This document shows, piece by piece, positions 1 through 47,672 of a stretch of DNA of 64,000 nt. A program made the position numbers and the translations under genes. Source of the stretch: Rhodovulum visakhapatnamense (GTDB lineage: Bacteria; Pseudomonadota; Alphaproteobacteria; Rhodobacterales; Rhodobacteraceae). The first letter of the stretch is position 1. Each line of letters starts with the position of its first letter. The notes under the pieces are model-generated. The model had not been told where the DNA came from. It did no database searches and saw only the letters and a list, made by a program, of their open reading frames with translations. The DNA lies in NCBI RefSeq assembly GCF_004365965.1, contig NZ_SOEB01000005.1, positions 62,001 to 126,000 on the forward strand. The letters are read 5' to 3'.

Positions 1-2538
<2,538 letters not shown>

Positions 2539-2653
2539 CTGTGGTCTCGCCTTTCGTCTGTCGCGGGCGCATCCACCGTCGGGCCCCGGTGGCGCGCCGC
2601 TCGCGATGAGGGGGATAAGGTTCCATTCCTGCGGTCCGTCCCACCGGCCGCTC

Positions 2654-2717
2654 CCGAACCTCGAACCGCACCTTGGAAAGGGCTTTAGAAAGCAAGCCCT
2701 TTCCAAGACAGGTTCGG
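2654..2717 (-). promoter_or_regulatory. rplL-rpoB intercistronic hairpin
   Basis: A 14-base perfect inverted repeat (2672-2685 with 2694-2707, 8-base loop) is flanked by a second pair of 8-base arms (2654-2661 with 2710-2717), making one extended bulged stem. No run of T follows in the direction of transcription, so it does not look like a strong intrinsic terminator. In E. coli the same gap between rplL and rpoB carries an attenuator and an RNase III processing site. By position and shape this hairpin is a candidate for the same role, lowering or separating rpoB expression from the ribosomal genes. The structure is seen; the function is inferred. Confidence 0.6.
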
Positions 2718-2787
2718 CTGGGCCCGGACAAACCGCCGGACCCAGCCAACATCTTTCAGGTCACGGGCGCTCGGCCCGCGATCCCGA

Positions 2788-3168
2788 TCACTTGAGCTCG
2801 ACTTCGGCGCCAGCCGCTTCGAGTTTGCCTTTGATGTCCTCGGCTTCGGCTTTGGAGACTTGCTCCTTGACGGCCTTGCCGCCGGCTTCGACCAGGTCCT
2901 TGGCTTCTTTCAGGCCAAGACCGGTGATCGCGCGGACTTCCTTGATGACGTTGATCTTGTTCGCGCCAGCCGATTTCAGGATGACGTCGAATTCGGTCTG
3001 CTCTTCGGCAGCGGCGGCTTCGCCACCGGCAGCCGGGCCGGCCATCATGACGGCGCCGCCGGCGGCGGGCTCGATGCCGTACTCGTCTTTCAGGATGGTT
3101 TTCAGTTCCTGGGCCTCGAGAAGCGTGAGGTTCACGATCTCTTCGGCAAGTTTCTTCAGATCAGCCAT
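2788..3168 (-). CDS. rplL: 50S ribosomal protein L7/L12
   Basis: Stalk protein of the large ribosomal subunit, present as dimers on L10 and recruiting translation GTPases. The 126-residue product has the family layout: an N-terminal dimerisation helix ([19 protein letters not shown]), an Ala/Gly/Pro-rich hinge at about residues 35-56, and a C-terminal factor-binding domain with the conserved stretch [20 protein letters not shown]. Length matches the family (120-127). It lies 72 bases downstream of rplJ on the same strand and precedes rpoB, the standard rplKAJL-rpoBC order. An overlapping frame on the other strand is a shadow. Confidence 0.98.
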
Positions 3169-3240
3169 GTTCTGTTCCGTTCTTTCACATTGTCTGTTCC
3201 AACGCGAGGCATCTGCCCTTCACGCGGGATCACAAGTTGC

Positions 3241-3759
3241 TCAAGCGGCTTCCGCACGCTCCTCGATGGTCGAGAGGATGCTCGCGATGTTGGAAGCGGG
3301 CGCGCCAATCGCACCGGCGATGTTCGCGGCGGGTGCACCGATGCAGCCGACGATCGAGGCGATAAGCTCCTCGCGCGACGGCATTTCGGACACTGCCTTG
3401 ACACCGGCCCGGTCCAGGGCCGTCTCGCCCATGGCACCGCCGAGGATCTCGAATTTCGAGTTGTCCTTGGCGAAGCCTTCCGCGACCTTGGCAGCAGCCA
3501 CCGGGTCCTCGGAATAGGCAAGAACGGTCATGCCCGTCAGAAGAGTGGCCATGCTGGCGCAGGGCTTTCCTTCCAGGGCGATCTTGGCGAGCCTGTTCTT
3601 GGCGACGCGAACGGACCCACCCGCTTCGCGCATGCGTGCGCGCAGGTCCTGCATCTCGGCAACCGTGAGACCCGCGTAGTGGGCAACCACCACGACGCCA
3701 GAGCTTTCGAAGATCTGGCCGAGTTCGTCGACCACTTTCTCTTTCTGGGCTCTATCCAC
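3241..3759 (-). CDS. rplJ: 50S ribosomal protein L10
   Basis: Base of the ribosomal stalk, binding 23S rRNA with its N-terminal domain and L7/L12 dimers with its C-terminal helix. The 172-residue product starts [17 protein letters not shown] and has the L10 signature [21 protein letters not shown] and KNRLAKIAL. The C-terminal Ala-rich stretch ending [14 protein letters not shown] fits the L7/L12-binding helix. In many bacteria the L10-(L7/L12) complex represses its own mRNA through the leader upstream of rplJ. Here that leader is 266 bases long and rich in hairpins, so autogenous control is plausible. Confidence 0.97.
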
Positions 3760-3948
3760 AGTTTCACTCCAATTTGGGGGTTTCCCCCCGGCTCTAGGTT
3801 TGCCGGCCTGACTGCCGGCTTTCGGGTCCGTATGGGTCCCGAGGCCAGGATCGCCCGAGGGTTTCCCCGCGGAAATCTGTCTCGTTTCCCCATCTCGGGA
3901 AGGACATTAAGCGAGGCTTGCGCCCTGCACCCTCCGTCTCGGACAGGA

Positions 3949-4022
3949 CGGGGCGTTTCCGCCCCGCCATTCCCGGGCACGAGTCCCGGGAATTCTCGCG
4001 AAGATAGGAGTTAACCTATCTT
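3949..4022 (-). promoter_or_regulatory. Hairpin-rich rplJ leader
   Basis: Within the 266-base gap between rplA and rplJ three perfect hairpins follow one another. In transcription order they are: arms 4015-4022/4001-4008 (8 bp, 6-base loop), starting 3 bases after the rplA stop; arms 3985-3993/3969-3977 (9 bp, 7-base loop); and arms 3960-3966/3949-3955 (7 bp, 4-base loop). None is followed by a clear T run. This region separates the L11/L1 cistrons from the L10/L12-RNA polymerase cistrons, where bacteria usually have the L10 autoregulatory leader, a processing site or an internal promoter. The hairpins are seen directly; which function they serve cannot be decided from sequence alone. Confidence 0.5.
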
Positions 4023-4025
4023 AAA

Positions 4026-4724
4026 TCAATTCCCGGTTGCCGAAGTCACGTCGACCGACACGCCCGGGCCCATGGTCGAACTGAGGCTGACCTTCTTCAT
4101 GTAGGTGCCCTTGGCGCCGGCCGGCTTGGCCTTGACCACGGCATCGACGAAGGCGCGCACGTTCTCGGCCAGCTTGCCGGCGTCGAACGAGGTCTTGCCG
4201 ATGCCGGCATGGATCACGCCCGCCTTCTCGACCCGGAACTGGACCTCACCGCCCTTGGCGGCCTGAACCGCCGTGGCAACGTCCATCGTCACGGTGCCGA
4301 CCTTGGGGTTCGGCATCAGGTTGCGCGGGCCCAGGATCTTGCCGAGACGGCCGACGATCGGCATCATGTCCGGCGTGGCGATGCAGCGATCGAATTCGAT
4401 CGTGCCGCCCTGGATGGTTTCCATCAGATCCTCGGCGCCGACGATATCGGCGCCCGCCGCCTTGGCTTCATCGGCCTTGGCGCCGCGGGCGAAGACCGCC
4501 ACGCGCACGGTCTTGCCGGTGCCGTTCGGCAGGGTGACGACGCCACGGACCATCTGGTCGGCGTGACGCGGATCGACGCCGAGGTTCAGCGCGATTTCCA
4601 GCGTCTCGTCGAACTTGGCCGAGGCATTGTCCTTGACGAGGCTCACCGCCTCTTCGACCGACAGGTTGTCCTTGCCAGCGAAGGCTTCCCGCGCGGCGCG
4701 GACACGTTTCCCATGTTTCGCCAT
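4026..4724 (-). CDS. rplA: 50S ribosomal protein L1
   Basis: Ribosomal L1-stalk protein, binding helices 76-78 of 23S rRNA and helping release of E-site tRNA; often also a translational repressor of rplKA. The 232-residue product begins [17 protein letters not shown] and contains L1 signatures such as [15 protein letters not shown] and [20 protein letters not shown]. Length matches the family (about 230). It starts 5 bases after the rplK stop, so the two are translated as a tight pair. Confidence 0.98.
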
Positions 4725-4729
4725 CGCGC

Positions 4730-5182
4730 TTACCCCTTCACCTCGATGCCCATCGAGCGGGCCGACCCCAGGATGATCTGCATCGCGCCCTCGACATCGC
4801 TGGCGTTCAGATCCTTCATCTTCGCCTCGGCGATCTCGCGCACCTGGGCCACGGTCACAGAGCCCGCGACCTCACGGCCGGGCTTTTCCGACCCTTTCGG
4901 ACGGTTGCGCTTGCCGACCGGCTTTAGGCCCGCCGCCTTCTTGAGGAAGTAGGACGCCGGGGGCGTCTTGATGTCCATCGAGAAGGACTTGTCCTGGTAG
5001 TAGGTGATGACCGTCGGGCACGGGGCGCCGGGCTCCATGTCCTGGGTCTTGGCGTTGAACGCCTTGCAGAATTCCATGATGTTGATGCCGCGCTGACCGA
5101 GCGCGGGACCGACGGGCGGCGACGGGTTCGCCTGACCCGCCTTCACCTGAAGCTTGAGCTTCCCGATTACCTTCTTGGCCAT
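4730..5182 (-). CDS. rplK: 50S ribosomal protein L11
   Basis: Component of the GTPase-associated centre, the site of thiostrepton action and of RelA sensing. The 150-residue product starts [20 protein letters not shown] with the rRNA-contacting [20 protein letters not shown] region. It is a little longer than the E. coli protein because of an insertion (about residues 86-99, [18 protein letters not shown]) that I recall from Rhodobacteraceae L11. An SD-like GAAGGAGATGG lies directly upstream of the ATG. It follows nusG after about 100 bases that contain a 14-base GC palindrome at 5253-5266, and precedes rplA by 5 bases. Confidence 0.98.
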
Positions 5183-5286
5183 CCGGCCATCTCCTTCTTG
5201 TCACCGCGCCGGTCCCTCGCGAGGGCGGCGCTTCGGTTTAGTGGTGCGGTCCGCGGGCGCGCCCGCTCGCCTCCCACAGATTCACG

Positions 5287-5823
5287 TCAGAGCTGCCCCT
5301 TGGACACCTGCGTGAATTCCAGCTCGACCGGGGTGGCCCGACCGAAGATCGACACCGTCACCTTGAGGCGCTGGTTGTCGTCGTCCACTTCCTCGACCAT
5401 GCCCGAGAAGCCCTCGAACGGCCCGTCGGTCACACTTACGTTTTCGCCGATCTCGTAGGTGATCAGCGACCGCGGCTGGGCCTCGCCTTCTTCGACGCGG
5501 TTGAGGATCTGGTTCACCTCTTCGTCGCGCATCGGCATCGGCTTGCCCTGCGGCCCGAGGAACCCGGTCACCCGGTTGATCTGCGTCACCAGGTGATAGC
5601 CGCGGTCGGTCATCTCCATGCGCACCAGCACATAGCCGGGCATGAAGCGCCGCTCGGTCGTCACCTTCTTGCCGCGCCGGACCTCGATCACCTCTTCGGT
5701 CGGCACCAGGACTTCCTCGATCTCTTCCTCGAGACCGGCATCCGCCACGGCTTGCTTGATCTGTTCGGCAACCTTCTTCTCGAAGTTCGAGAGAACGCTC
5801 ACCGAATACCACCGCTTCGCCAT
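5287..5823 (-). CDS. nusG: Transcription termination/antitermination factor NusG
   Basis: Elongation factor that binds RNA polymerase through its NGN domain and links it to Rho or ribosomal S10 through its KOW domain. The 178-residue product starts [20 protein letters not shown] (NGN domain, to about residue 115, with the conserved [14 protein letters not shown]). It ends with a KOW domain ([19 protein letters not shown] to the C-terminus). SD-like AAGGGGC precedes the ATG. It lies between secE and rplK, the usual order. The 173-base gap from secE contains no gene. Confidence 0.98.
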
Positions 5824-5996
5824 GTTGCCCCTTACCTCGTGTCCGACGGCCGTTCAGGCCGCGATGATCTTGCGTTGTCCGGAACAAAAAACAGCGCGCA
5901 ACCCGAATCGATGCACGCCGGAGCCCAGAAAAGTAGCGATGCCCTACCGTTCCCACCGCCGGAATTCAAGCCCCGGGGAGATCGCGGCGCCGCATC

Positions 5997-6188
5997 TCAG
6001 CCGAAAAACCCAAGCAGAAGCTGCAATCCGCTTCGGATCAGCCAGTCGACAAAGAAGAAGAAGACCGCCGTCAGAGAGGCCATCACGAAGACCATGATGG
6101 TGGTCAGGAACACCTCGCGCCGGGTCGGCCAGACCACCTTCGAGATTTCCGAGCGGGTCTGCTGAATGAACTGGAGGGGGTTCGCCAT
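5997..6188 (-). CDS. secE: Preprotein translocase subunit SecE
   Basis: Small essential subunit of the SecYEG translocon in the inner membrane. The 63-residue product has a short amphipathic N-terminal helix with the family signature SEISKVVWPTRREVFLTT and one hydrophobic segment (about residues 31-59). I chose the ATG at 6188 because MANPLQFIQQTRSEISK is the usual start. The same frame runs upstream to 6323, but that extension is Arg/Ala-rich and unlike SecE. A good SD is not evident. A tRNA-Trp gene often precedes secE, but none was recognised upstream here. Confidence 0.95.
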   Translation of the reverse strand: MANPLQFIQQTRSEISKVVWPTRREVFLTTIMVFVMASLTAVFFFFVDWLIRSGLQLLLGFFG

Positions 6189-6452
6189 GGGCCTGCGGGG
6201 TCCGTTCTGCCTGTCAACCGCGCCGAGATACGCGCTTGGGCGCCGCTTTGCAAGGGCAGCGCCCGCCGCGACCGCTGCCTGCCGCTTCCGCCTCTCCTGA
6301 TCCCGGCCGCGGCGACCCGGCACACGGATCGAGGGCCGCGCCTTTCCTGGATCGGCAATCGCGTCGAGTTTTAGCCACTGCCTGTCCCGGGGTTCACCGG
6401 TTGTTCAGACACCGGGCGCAATGAACGGTTGAGATCACAAGGGGTCGGATTG

Positions 6453-8666
6453 GTGGAACATCCTTTCAGAACAGTATCCGGAAAGCTTCTTCTCGCGACT
6501 GGTGCGGCGGTGTCGGTGATTGTCGCCGGCTTTTCGGTCTACAGCGGCTGGCAATCCTCTCAGAGGGTCGACCGCGAGGTGATGGAGCTGGCCTCGGAAA
6601 AAGCCGCGCTCGTTGCCCAGAAGGTCGCCGTTCAGGTGACCGAGGCCACCTCGGCCGGCGCGGCGCTGGGCGGCGGGCTCGCGGGGTATCTGGGCACAGG
6701 CCATGCCGACCGGTCCGACATCATCGCGATGATCGAGGGCATTCCGGCCCAGTACGACAATATCTTCGGCGCCTGGATGGCCGGCATTCCCGGCGGCGGC
6801 ACGAACGATCTGCTGACCGGCGAGGGCGGCATGAACGAGGACGGGGTGTTCGCGCCCTGGTGGCACAAGGGCGCGGATGGCGGGCTCGAATTCGCCACCT
6901 TCAACGTCGGTGCCGACGATGGATGGTTCAAGGTGCCGACCACGACCGGCAAGCCCAGCATCACCGAACCCTACATGGGCGAAGGCAACTTCATGATGAC
7001 CAGCGTCGCGCTGCCCATCCGGGTCGGGGACGAGATCGTCGGCATCGCCGGTGTCGATATCGGGCTGGGCGATCTGACCGCGATGCTCGACGACCTGTCC
7101 GCGTTCGAGGGCGGGAAGAGCCTGCTGGTCAGCCAGGGCGGCAACTGGCTGACCGCCAGCGACCCGTCCAGGCTGAACAAGCCCTATGACGACACGGGCG
7201 CCGACGTCGTTTCAGCCGCACTTGCGGACGGCCGGATGCGCGTGATCCGCGACATGCCGGACCGGGCCACGCGGCTGGTCTATCCGTTCACGGCGCCAGG
7301 GATGAACACGACCTGGGCGGCGCTGGTCGACGTGCCGGCCGAAGTCTTCGCGGCCCCGGTGCGGGCCGAGATCGCCCGGACGATGGTCAGCGGCGCCCTG
7401 ATCCTGGCGATGGCGCTGGGCACCATCTACCTTGCCTCGATGGCGATGGTGCGCCGCCCGCTGGCCCGGATGCTGGCGGCGGTCGACGAACTGGCCTCGG
7501 GCGATTATGCCAAACCCGTCCCGGGACGCGAGCGGGGCGACGAGATCGGCGCGATGGCGCGATCGGTCGAAGCGCTTCGCCAAGGGTTGCTGGACAAGGA
7601 TGCGCTTGAAAAGGGCCAGGAACGGTCGAGGGCTGAACAGGCCAGCGTGGTCCAGAGCCTCGCGGCGGGGCTGAAAAGCCTGTCCGAAGGCGACCTGACG
7701 CGCTCGATCGAAGAGACCTTCGGGGCCGAATACGAACAGCTTCGTCAGGACTTCAACGCCACCATCGACACGCTGAACGCGCTGATGGGCGAGATCGTCG
7801 AGAACTCGACCGAGATCACCACCCGCGCCGAGGAAATCAGCGGCGCCTCGGACGACCTGTCCCGGCGGACCGAGAACCAGGCCGCCACCCTGGAAGAGAC
7901 CGCCGCCGCCATGGACGAGATGACCGCCAGCGTGCGCGCCGCGGCCGATGGCGCGGCCCAGGTCGAGAACGTGGTGCGCGAGGCGCGCGGCAATGCCGAA
8001 CAGTCGGGTCTGGTGGTCAAGGAAGCCATCGGCGCGATGTCCGAGATCAAGAAATCCTCCGACGGCATCAACCAGATCATCGGGGTGATCGACGACATCG
8101 CCTTCCAGACCAACCTTCTGGCGCTGAACGCGGGCGTCGAGGCGGCGCGGGCGGGCGAGGCGGGCCGGGGCTTTGCCGTTGTGGCCTCCGAGGTGCGGGC
8201 ACTGGCCCAGCGGTCCTCCGAGGCCGCGAAAGAGATCAAGACGCTGATTTCGTCCAGTTCCGATCAGGTCGAATCCGGCGTGGCGCTGGTGAACCGGACC
8301 GGCGAGGCGCTGACCGACATCGTCGAGCGCGTCAGCAACATCGCTGAACTGATCGGCGACATCGCGACCGGCGCTCAGGAACAGTCGGTGGGCTTGGGCG
8401 AGATCAATGTCGGCATCAACGAGCTGGACAAGGTCACCCAGCAGAACGCCGCCATGGTCGAGGAGGCGAACGCCGCCGCGGTGACGATGAAGCAGGAGGC
8501 GGGCAATCTGCAAAGCCTCGTCGCCCGGTTCCGTCTGAAGGGCAGCGCCCCCGCCGTCGCTCGCCCGCGTAGCCCGTCGCCATCCGCCTATGCGGAAGCT
8601 GCGTCATCCGGCACGGGGAGCCAGCCGAAACGGGCCGTGAACGACGCTGGCTGGACGGACTTCTAG
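6453..8666 (+). CDS. Methyl-accepting chemotaxis protein
   Basis: Membrane chemoreceptor of about 737 residues that signals to CheA/CheW. Order of parts: TM1 (about residues 8-30), a periplasmic sensor of about 275 residues that looks like a Cache/PDC domain, TM2 (about 308-332), HAMP (about 333-385), a second HAMP-like stretch (about 405-455), and the cytoplasmic coiled coil. The conserved tip [20 protein letters not shown] is followed by [20 protein letters not shown]. The protein ends GWTDF, an xWxxF tail like those that dock CheR/CheB. I chose GTG at 6453 because AAGGGG lies 8 bases upstream; TTG at 6450 or 6429 in the same frame are alternatives. No other che gene is in the window, and the ligand is unknown. 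Confidence 0.93.
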
Positions 8667-46483: not shown

Positions 46484-46963
46484 TCAGCCCCGCCCGGCCT
46501 TTTCCTGCAAAAGCGCGGTCAGGATCTCGGCCATCGCCTTGGCCTCGCCCGCCGAGGTCACGCCGCCCACGCCCACCCGGCGACCGAACCGCCACCAGAC
46601 CCCCGGCGCCCAGGCGCGCGGCAGGGCCTCGGTCAGGCTCAGCGAAAACCCGTTCGAGGGCTTGAAGGCCAGCATGCCCCGGTCGAGCCCGGAAATCCGC
46701 TCGATCCGCGCCAGCTCGCGCCCGCGGTCGTCGAAAAGACCCTCGCGCGTCAGCACCAGCCGACGCGCCGTCGCCCGGCGCATCGCCTCGGCCAAAGCCA
46801 GCGCCCCCGCTCCCATCGCCAGCAGGAACGCACGGTATCCGATGCCAGCGGGCGGATGCACAAGCGCGATCTGCAACAGCAGCCCCGCCAGTGCCAGCAG
46901 CACGCCCAGACCGATCACCCGGCGCACGGCCGACACCCTGAGCGTTGCCAGTTCTTCCGTCAT
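46484..46963 (-). CDS. Small membrane protein, possibly PH-like
   Basis: 159-residue protein with two hydrophobic segments near the N-terminus (VIGLGVLLALAGLLLQIALV and YRAFLLAMGAGALALAEAM) followed by a beta-rich cytoplasmic part (LVLTREGLFDDRGRELARIE...; ALPRAWAPGVWWRFGRRVGV). This layout resembles small bacterial membrane proteins with a PH-like fold. I chose ATG at 46963 because AAGGGG lies upstream. It precedes dnaG on the same strand (99 bases) and is divergent from the repeat-protein gene. Function unknown. Confidence 0.82.
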   Translation of the reverse strand: MTEELATLRVSAVRRVIGLGVLLALAGLLLQIALVHPPAGIGYRAFLLAMGAGALALAEAMRRATARRLVLTREGLFDDRGRELARIERISGLDRGMLAFKPSNGFSLSLTEALPRAWAPGVWWRFGRRVGVGGVTSAGEAKAMAEILTALLQEKAGRG

Positions 46964-47202
46964 TTCCGCCCCTTTCGCCCCGCGCCAGACGCGGCCCGCA
47001 TGAAATTCGTGCAGACGCGGCGATGCTGCCCTGTGATTCCGGCAGAGTATCGCGTAGGCTCGCCTCTTGTTGGGCGAGAGGGTCGGCGTCAACCCGCGAC
47101 CGGACAGACGCGGCGAAAAAGCACCTTGCCCGAGGCGACGAAGTCGCCATCTTTGGGGGGAAGCCAATTCATTTTGGTGGACAGGATCAACACAGGTGGA
47201 TC

Positions 47203-47562
47203 ATGACTGACAAAACTTCGGAAAAGCCCGCGCAACTCCTGGAAGACCCGACTCCGTTCTCGAATCGGATGAACTGGCCTCTGCTCAGCGCGTCCAACTC
47301 GAAAACCGAGCTGAAAACGGACGATCCGACGCCGTTCTCCAGCCAGTTCAAGTGGCCGCTGCTGTCGGGCCGCAAGTCCCAGGTCGAGCTGACCACCGGG
47401 ACGACCCCGCTTTCCGACATGATGAAATGGCCGCTGCTCAGCGACAAGGCGACCATGTTCGACACCGAGCTTCCCTCGGCCGAAGGTGGCAGCAAGGCCA
47501 CCGGCGACAGCCCGGTCAGCAAGTTCATTCGCGGCATCATGACCGGCGAACCGCAGAAGTAA
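47203..47562 (+). CDS. Small protein with three WPLLS repeats
   Basis: 119-residue soluble protein without signal peptide or TM helix. It consists mainly of three tandem repeats of about 25 residues: PTPFSNRMNWPLLS (16-29), PTPFSSQFKWPLLS (42-55) and TTPLSDMMKWPLLS (67-80), the tryptophans 26 and 25 residues apart. Each is followed by a polar stretch ending in T/V-E-L. A fourth, diverged copy (SPVSKFIRGIM, 103-113) near the C-terminus keeps the P-x-S pattern but not the Trp. AGGTGG lies just upstream of the ATG and a strong terminator follows, so it looks like a real, separately expressed gene. I do not recognise the family. Confidence 0.8.
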   Translation: MTDKTSEKPAQLLEDPTPFSNRMNWPLLSASNSKTELKTDDPTPFSSQFKWPLLSGRKSQVELTTGTTPLSDMMKWPLLSDKATMFDTELPSAEGGSKATGDSPVSKFIRGIMTGEPQK

Positions 47563-47592
47563 GCGGACCGGCCAAAGCCGTTTTTGGCGCGG

Positions 47593-47618
47593 AACCCGCC
47601 GGGATCTCCCGGCGGGTT
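47593..47618 (+). terminator. Intrinsic terminator after the WPLLS-repeat gene
   Basis: A perfect 11-bp stem (47593-47603 AACCCGCCGGG with 47608-47618, 4-base loop ATCT) lies 31 bases after the stop codon and is followed by TCGCGTTTT. It is the clearest terminator structure in the window and sits between two convergent genes, so it may also stop the TetR-family gene transcript from the other side. Confidence 0.85.
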
Positions 47619-47672
47619 TCGCGTTTTCGGCATTTGGGACGTTGGACGCCGCCGCACCGGACGGTCCGCGCG

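Follow-up and report, generated by a model that had tools for sequence, protein, structure and literature searches.

A WPLLS-repeat protein family of Rhodovulum and its genetic linkage to the LH2 antenna

A small gene of Rhodovulum visakhapatnamense encodes a protein of tandem WPLLS repeats whose family is linked genetically to LH2. The linkage rests on two independent lines: one class of the family lies beside pucB, and the repeat motif is shared with the tails of a protein encoded after pucC in other genera. The gene, which lies in a 64,000-nucleotide stretch of DNA that we call the window, is real, for within Rhodovulum it is both conserved and syntenic and evolves under purifying selection. 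In our best reading, the WPLLS protein is an antenna-associated, multi-motif extended polypeptide that acts either in the manner of the LH2 gamma polypeptide or as a tether, a role that we infer for the window copy. As far as Pfam, NCBIfam, PHROGs, the PDB and the searchable literature reach, neither the WPLLS family nor the post-pucC protein has been described.

The window gene and its control region

The open reading frame at 47203-47562 on the forward strand translates to MTDKTSEKPAQLLEDPTPFSNRMNWPLLSASNSKTELKTDDPTPFSSQFKWPLLSGRKSQVELTTGTTPLSDMMKWPLLSDKATMFDTELPSAEGGSKATGDSPVSKFIRGIMTGEPQK. Its parts and surroundings are as follows.

47125..47152, + strand: putative RpoH-type promoter, CTTGCC - N16 - CCATCT, proposed from conserved boxes in the sequence
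47160..47202, + strand: conserved 5' leader, GAAGCCAA-TTC-TTTTGGTGGA-CAGGATCA, seen when 13 class A upstream regions are aligned
47194-47199, + strand: SD-like AGGTGG, just 5' of the ATG
47203..47562, + strand: class A WPLLS repeat protein, 119 aa (GC3 0.83; dN/dS 0.12-0.68)
47251..47289, + strand: repeat core 1, TPFSNRMNWPLLS (residues 17-29)
47329..47367, + strand: repeat core 2, TPFSSQFKWPLLS (residues 43-55)
47404..47442, + strand: repeat core 3, TPLSDMMKWPLLS (residues 68-80)
47512..47544, + strand: C-terminal helix predicted by AlphaFold2 (residues 104-114)
47586..47625, + strand: terminator hairpin (-46 kcal/mol, z = -4.6)

A first, sequence-only reading had described three tandem repeats of about 25 residues and a fourth, diverged copy. 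The three are present: units of 25-26 residues share the core TP[FL]SxxxxWPLLS, with WPLLS at residues 25, 51 and 76 (spacing 26 and 25), and a chance origin can be rejected, since two or more copies of WPLLS never arose when the protein sequence was shuffled 200,000 times. The supposed fourth copy is a distinct conserved C-terminal segment (residues ~85-119, ..SxFxRxIMTGExQK) that is not repeated and that, by alignment, is common to classes A and B of the family described below; the predicted helix sits in this conserved tail, ..SKFIRGIMTGEPQK. At the DNA level the cores are alike but not identical, as had been observed: identity is 64-74%, with 3-5 synonymous codon differences over 9 identical residues, and the repeats are therefore not products of recent slippage. 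Each unit of ~25 residues joins a hydrophobic apex (TP[FL]SxxMxWPLLS) to a charged spacer (xRKSxVELKTDD); a Fourier analysis of hydropathy found no clean 25-residue period in the window protein. The protein probably lacks a fold and is intrinsically disordered, to judge from a low-confidence AlphaFold2 model based on 6 sequences (pLDDT 50, pTM 0.16), in which helix 104-114 is the only element.

Upstream of class A genes, boxes resembling CTTG(C/T)C and CCAT(C/G)(T/C)T stand at near-constant spacing ahead of a leader of ~40 nt, an arrangement kept in most of Rhodovulum; both boxes are retained in the divergent locus L014, whose remaining upstream sequence is unconserved. RpoHI and RpoHII promoters of R. 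sphaeroides carry TTG at -35, A-12 and T-9 (PMC3441632), and the class A boxes, which agree at all three, resemble them closely enough for a putative assignment. Folding of the 5' leader RNA was in no way unusual (z +0.5). The AGGTGG immediately before the ATG bears out the SD-like start that had been noted, and the "textbook terminator" of the same reading is a strong hairpin, which a simple consensus terminator scan did not list, the T-run being interrupted.

The gene is flanked by dnaG and a TetR gene, not by photosynthesis genes, and between dnaG and the repeat gene lies another small protein gene (46484-46963, reverse strand) with no Pfam match. In another genus, locus L172 (G291:C20, + strand, 1540-6568) holds a second pucBA operon, whose PucA has a long repetitive extension and which adjoins rpoD, at the end of an rpoD-dnaG pair; the same pair flanks the window gene in Rhodovulum. 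This arrangement may be a coincidence or the trace of a former puc locus.

The family and its two lines of linkage to LH2

A single-sequence search recovered the window protein and its paralogues in 16 Rhodovulum genomes, with 2-6 loci per genome, which were read and sorted into four classes.

Class A: the window type; 2-3 repeats; end ..SKFxRxIMTGExQK
Class B: mostly 4-5 repeats; same end as class A
Class C: ~107 aa; N-terminus M(K/T)xY(I/F)WDDWxPKL; 3 repeats
Class D: ~90 aa; basic; 2 repeats

The class A gene is syntenic across Rhodovulum. Its dN/dS values, together with a repeat number that varies among homologues, from 2 to 5 within Rhodovulum to about 9 in its relatives, support the earlier suggestion of selection for the motif. 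Conservation of the motif core is equal in classes A and C, and the Ser of P[FL]S occurs in 106 of 106 family units, a count partly biased because the pattern used to pick units demanded S, T or F at that position. The protein had been called unrecognised, and it has stayed so: it has homologues in the 16 genomes, and searches of Pfam, NCBIfam, PHROGs and PDB sequences with the family returned nothing above cut-off. A full-protein profile found no full-length relative outside Rhodovulum among 393 Rhodobacteraceae genera, and plasmid searches with the window protein and with two post-pucC proteins found no homologue; proteins of ~480-530 aa in many genera gave weak repeat-profile matches that we put down to chance. 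In class A proteins of three Rhodovulum species (L013, L016 and L029) several short tandem units, approximately K-T-F/Y/M-T-N-P-Q-V-E-T, stand in place of the first repeat, so that a second kind of repeat occurs within one protein.

Class C lies divergent from pucB, the gene for LH2 beta, in 15 of the 16 Rhodovulum genomes (eleven loci read directly, plus G013, G004, G015 and G006); in the exception, G009, class C and puc are on separate contigs. All 11 of the class C-pucB intergenic regions checked (388-633 bp) contain a TGTN12ACA palindrome, the form of the PpsR/CrtJ site. Adjacency to pucB alone is weak evidence, because class A too is syntenic genus-wide, and synteny conserved inside a single genus is a weak guide to function.

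The second line comes from other genera. A repeat-only Rhodovulum profile gave weak matches there, four of which sat ~2.5 kb downstream of the pucB gene of their own genome, and at those loci an undescribed gene lies directly 3' of pucC in LH2 operons. The gene starts ~2.0 kb past pucB in ~40 loci, and its product, of 200-350 aa, opens with a domain of ~115 aa (starting MTTIITRLY, with a weak likeness to YflT) that is followed by a repeat tail; tail units read, for example, RHARMANWPIPLISRRKPYTGSIF or GGRFMSRAFWPMPLLSKKPRSNSVI, the tail often ends in FSxxLGWPTxxRR, and in a long-tailed class about nine motifs follow one another at a period of 25. With genera as non-independent samples, the N-terminal domain profile matches 48 of 394 genomes and pucB is present in 55, both occurring in 46 and neither in 337 (Fisher 2e-48); among 144 reaction-centre genomes, 39 have both, 2 the post-pucC protein only, 6 pucB only and 97 neither (2e-26). 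The post-pucC protein therefore tracks LH2, not phototrophy in general. Lineages with PucB of the "LILGTRVFGG" type (Cereibacter-like) are without the gene, and at L182 (G165:C3), in a genome where pucB was not found, the post-pucC repeat gene survives as fragments behind a pucC fragment; the puc operon there is decayed. Genera with the post-pucC gene may also carry dispersed paralogues far from puc (L183, L184 and L185, in G416, G016 and G224), which can hold as many as a dozen units of the kind KFPFAHLVPGHKFMA, in parallel with the dispersed paralogues of Rhodovulum.

Profile comparisons in both directions give statistical support to a relationship between the Rhodovulum repeats and the post-pucC tails. 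When a profile of 106 Rhodovulum units was run against 7,471 ORF segments of other genera, most of them from loci retrieved around puc genes, post-pucC proteins took ranks 1-14 (best E 2.6e-10); shuffled tails scored at most 11.8 bits and real tails up to 38, with 30 of 41 real tails outscoring all 100 of their own shuffles. Conversely, a profile made from tails only and run against eight whole Rhodovulum genomes returned WPLLS proteins in rows 1-26 and as best match in 8/8, and hhalign aligned the repeats with the tails at a probability of 96.9 (E 1.8e-10, 17 columns). Both groups have tandem units of ~25 residues, a WP(x)PL[LI]SxRK core and linkage to LH2. They differ in that the MTTIITRLY domain belongs to the post-pucC proteins only (its profile had no match in two Rhodovulum genomes searched), in that the tails have a conserved His that the Rhodovulum repeats are without, and in that the post-pucC gene follows pucC, whereas the window gene has its place between dnaG and the TetR gene and class C is divergent from pucB. 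The common core is approximately xS-x(3-5)-WP-x(0-2)-L[LI]SxRK, so short that descent from a common ancestor is not fully separable from convergence on one partner.

Ribbon, tether or another partner

The sequence-only reading had proposed that the regularly spaced motif binds a repeated partner, a membrane surface or pigment. This group of ideas is now favoured on account of the genetic linkage to LH2 that both the family and its relatives show. The nearest characterised analogue is the LH2 gamma polypeptide of Rhodopseudomonas palustris (97 aa; PDB 7ZCU, 7ZDI, 7ZE3, 7ZE8), a non-helical repeat ribbon subunit reported in 2022, only in Rhodopseudomonas (PMC9618040). Close to the cytoplasmic side it runs as an extended ribbon, whose six repeats pass around six of the nine alpha/beta units; the Ser of each repeat ligates bacteriochlorophyll, and charged groups lie between the apices (PMC9618040). 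Like gamma, the WPLLS protein is small, is built of short tandem repeats with a Ser in every one and alternates hydrophobic parts (Ser/Pro-Leu-Ile in gamma) with charged spacers. Gamma, which has no regular secondary structure, is tied to LH2 physically, the WPLLS family by gene linkage, and the gamma repeat, [YF]SGxPLILKQEGEYKG, spans 15-16 residues and has no Trp, against 25-26 residues in the WPLLS repeat. Direct homology is unsupported: hhalign scored gamma against WPLLS at 8.3, a value equalled or bettered in 14 of 100 column-permuted controls, and a PDB sequence search with WPLLS profiles did not recover the gamma chain. With no sequence homology to gamma detected, we do not file the WPLLS family as a member of the gamma family; the common build, the LH2 linkage and the invariant Ser nevertheless make a gamma-like action the leading mechanism.

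We posit, tentatively and at somewhat less than even confidence, that the window protein represents class A of a disordered, multi-motif Rhodovulum family that acts on the antenna by such a ribbon mechanism. The chain would lie along the LH2 ring as an extended ribbon, with successive apices docking on successive alpha/beta subunits at the cytoplasmic membrane face, and would thereby stabilise or organise LH2; the invariant Ser might bind extra bacteriochlorophyll, as the repeat Ser does in the gamma polypeptide. Class A, with its RpoH-like promoter and its position away from puc, would act on the antenna as class C would, an extrapolation from the other classes and the relatives. Several points speak against the ribbon reading: the position of the window gene away from photosynthesis genes, the want of significant profile similarity to gamma and the difference in repeat period from it, the conserved His and the N-terminal domain that set the post-pucC proteins apart, the G009 exception, the weakness of synteny within one genus as a guide to function, and the bias in the Ser count.

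Next in rank, as a possibility that we take seriously while thinking it the less probable, comes an antenna assembly factor or tether: a multivalent chain that joins several LH2 rings to one another, or LH2 to either PucC or RC-LH1, acting during membrane assembly in the manner of EPYC1 or CsoS2 and being neither a ring subunit nor a pigment binder. It draws on the same LH2 linkage as the ribbon, and it would suit the position of the post-pucC gene behind pucC, an LH2 assembly factor, as well as the free variation in repeat number (2 to 9) and the predicted disorder; but tethering by itself explains neither the invariant Ser nor why the long-tailed class keeps so nearly to about nine motifs. 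EPYC1 and the N-terminal repeats of CsoS2 are disordered Rubisco linkers with evenly spaced short binding motifs. The WPLLS protein resembles them in architecture only, partner and sequence being different, and the single hint of a closer tie to Rubisco linkers is the location of class D. In several genomes class D (L040, L052, L053, L055, L122 and L124) is near a Rubisco form II/Calvin-cycle cluster (cbbA, cbbM, epimerase) or adjoins the phosphoglycolate-phosphatase-like end of that cluster; this proximity is inconsistent, being absent in G002.

The conserved RpoH-like promoter of class A, the distance of its gene from puc and its class-specific C-terminal helix would also fit a protein that has departed from the antenna, so that only class C serves LH2 and class A is a stress-induced disordered protein whose motif binds another partner or a membrane. 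We regard this as unlikely: the motif core is conserved equally in the two classes, and the promoter is compatible with an antenna role. In the related phototroph R. sphaeroides, RpoH regulons respond to heat and to singlet oxygen, a by-product of photosynthesis (PMC3441632), and an RpoH-type promoter is therefore no argument against action on the antenna. Less probable still is that repeats and tails are alike because both converged on a short membrane-surface motif rich in Trp and Pro, without a partner in common. The similarity per copy covers no more than 10-17 residues and the two groups share no folded domain, but reciprocal best matches across whole genomes, an equal period and puc linkage on both sides are jointly unlikely by chance. 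A spurious ORF or a multi-copy peptide precursor (the latter floated earlier), with nothing beyond the repeat pattern in its favour, we reject as scarcely credible in view of conservation in 16 genomes, purifying selection, promoter-like boxes, SD and terminator, conserved spacers and termini, and no evident leader or signal peptide, protease site or export gene.

Implications for antenna ribbons

On a broader view, which we offer as doubtful but worth stating, many LH2-bearing Rhodobacteraceae may possess a second, convergent antenna ribbon. Its motifs, nine at most, would each match one alpha/beta unit of a nonameric LH2, and the ribbon would run right round the ring, adding pigment or fixing ring packing; Rhodovulum would have turned it into a small family of interchangeable short ribbons, the window gene being one stress-regulated member. 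The idea can be put to a direct test, since 46 of the 53 LH2-bearing genomes examined outside Rhodovulum carry the puc-operon gene. LH2 serves as a model antenna. If the WPLLS proteins and the post-pucC tails bind it, accessory subunits of the ribbon kind would be common in marine phototrophs and would have evolved more than once, and the family would offer a natural experiment in matching repeat number to ring size.
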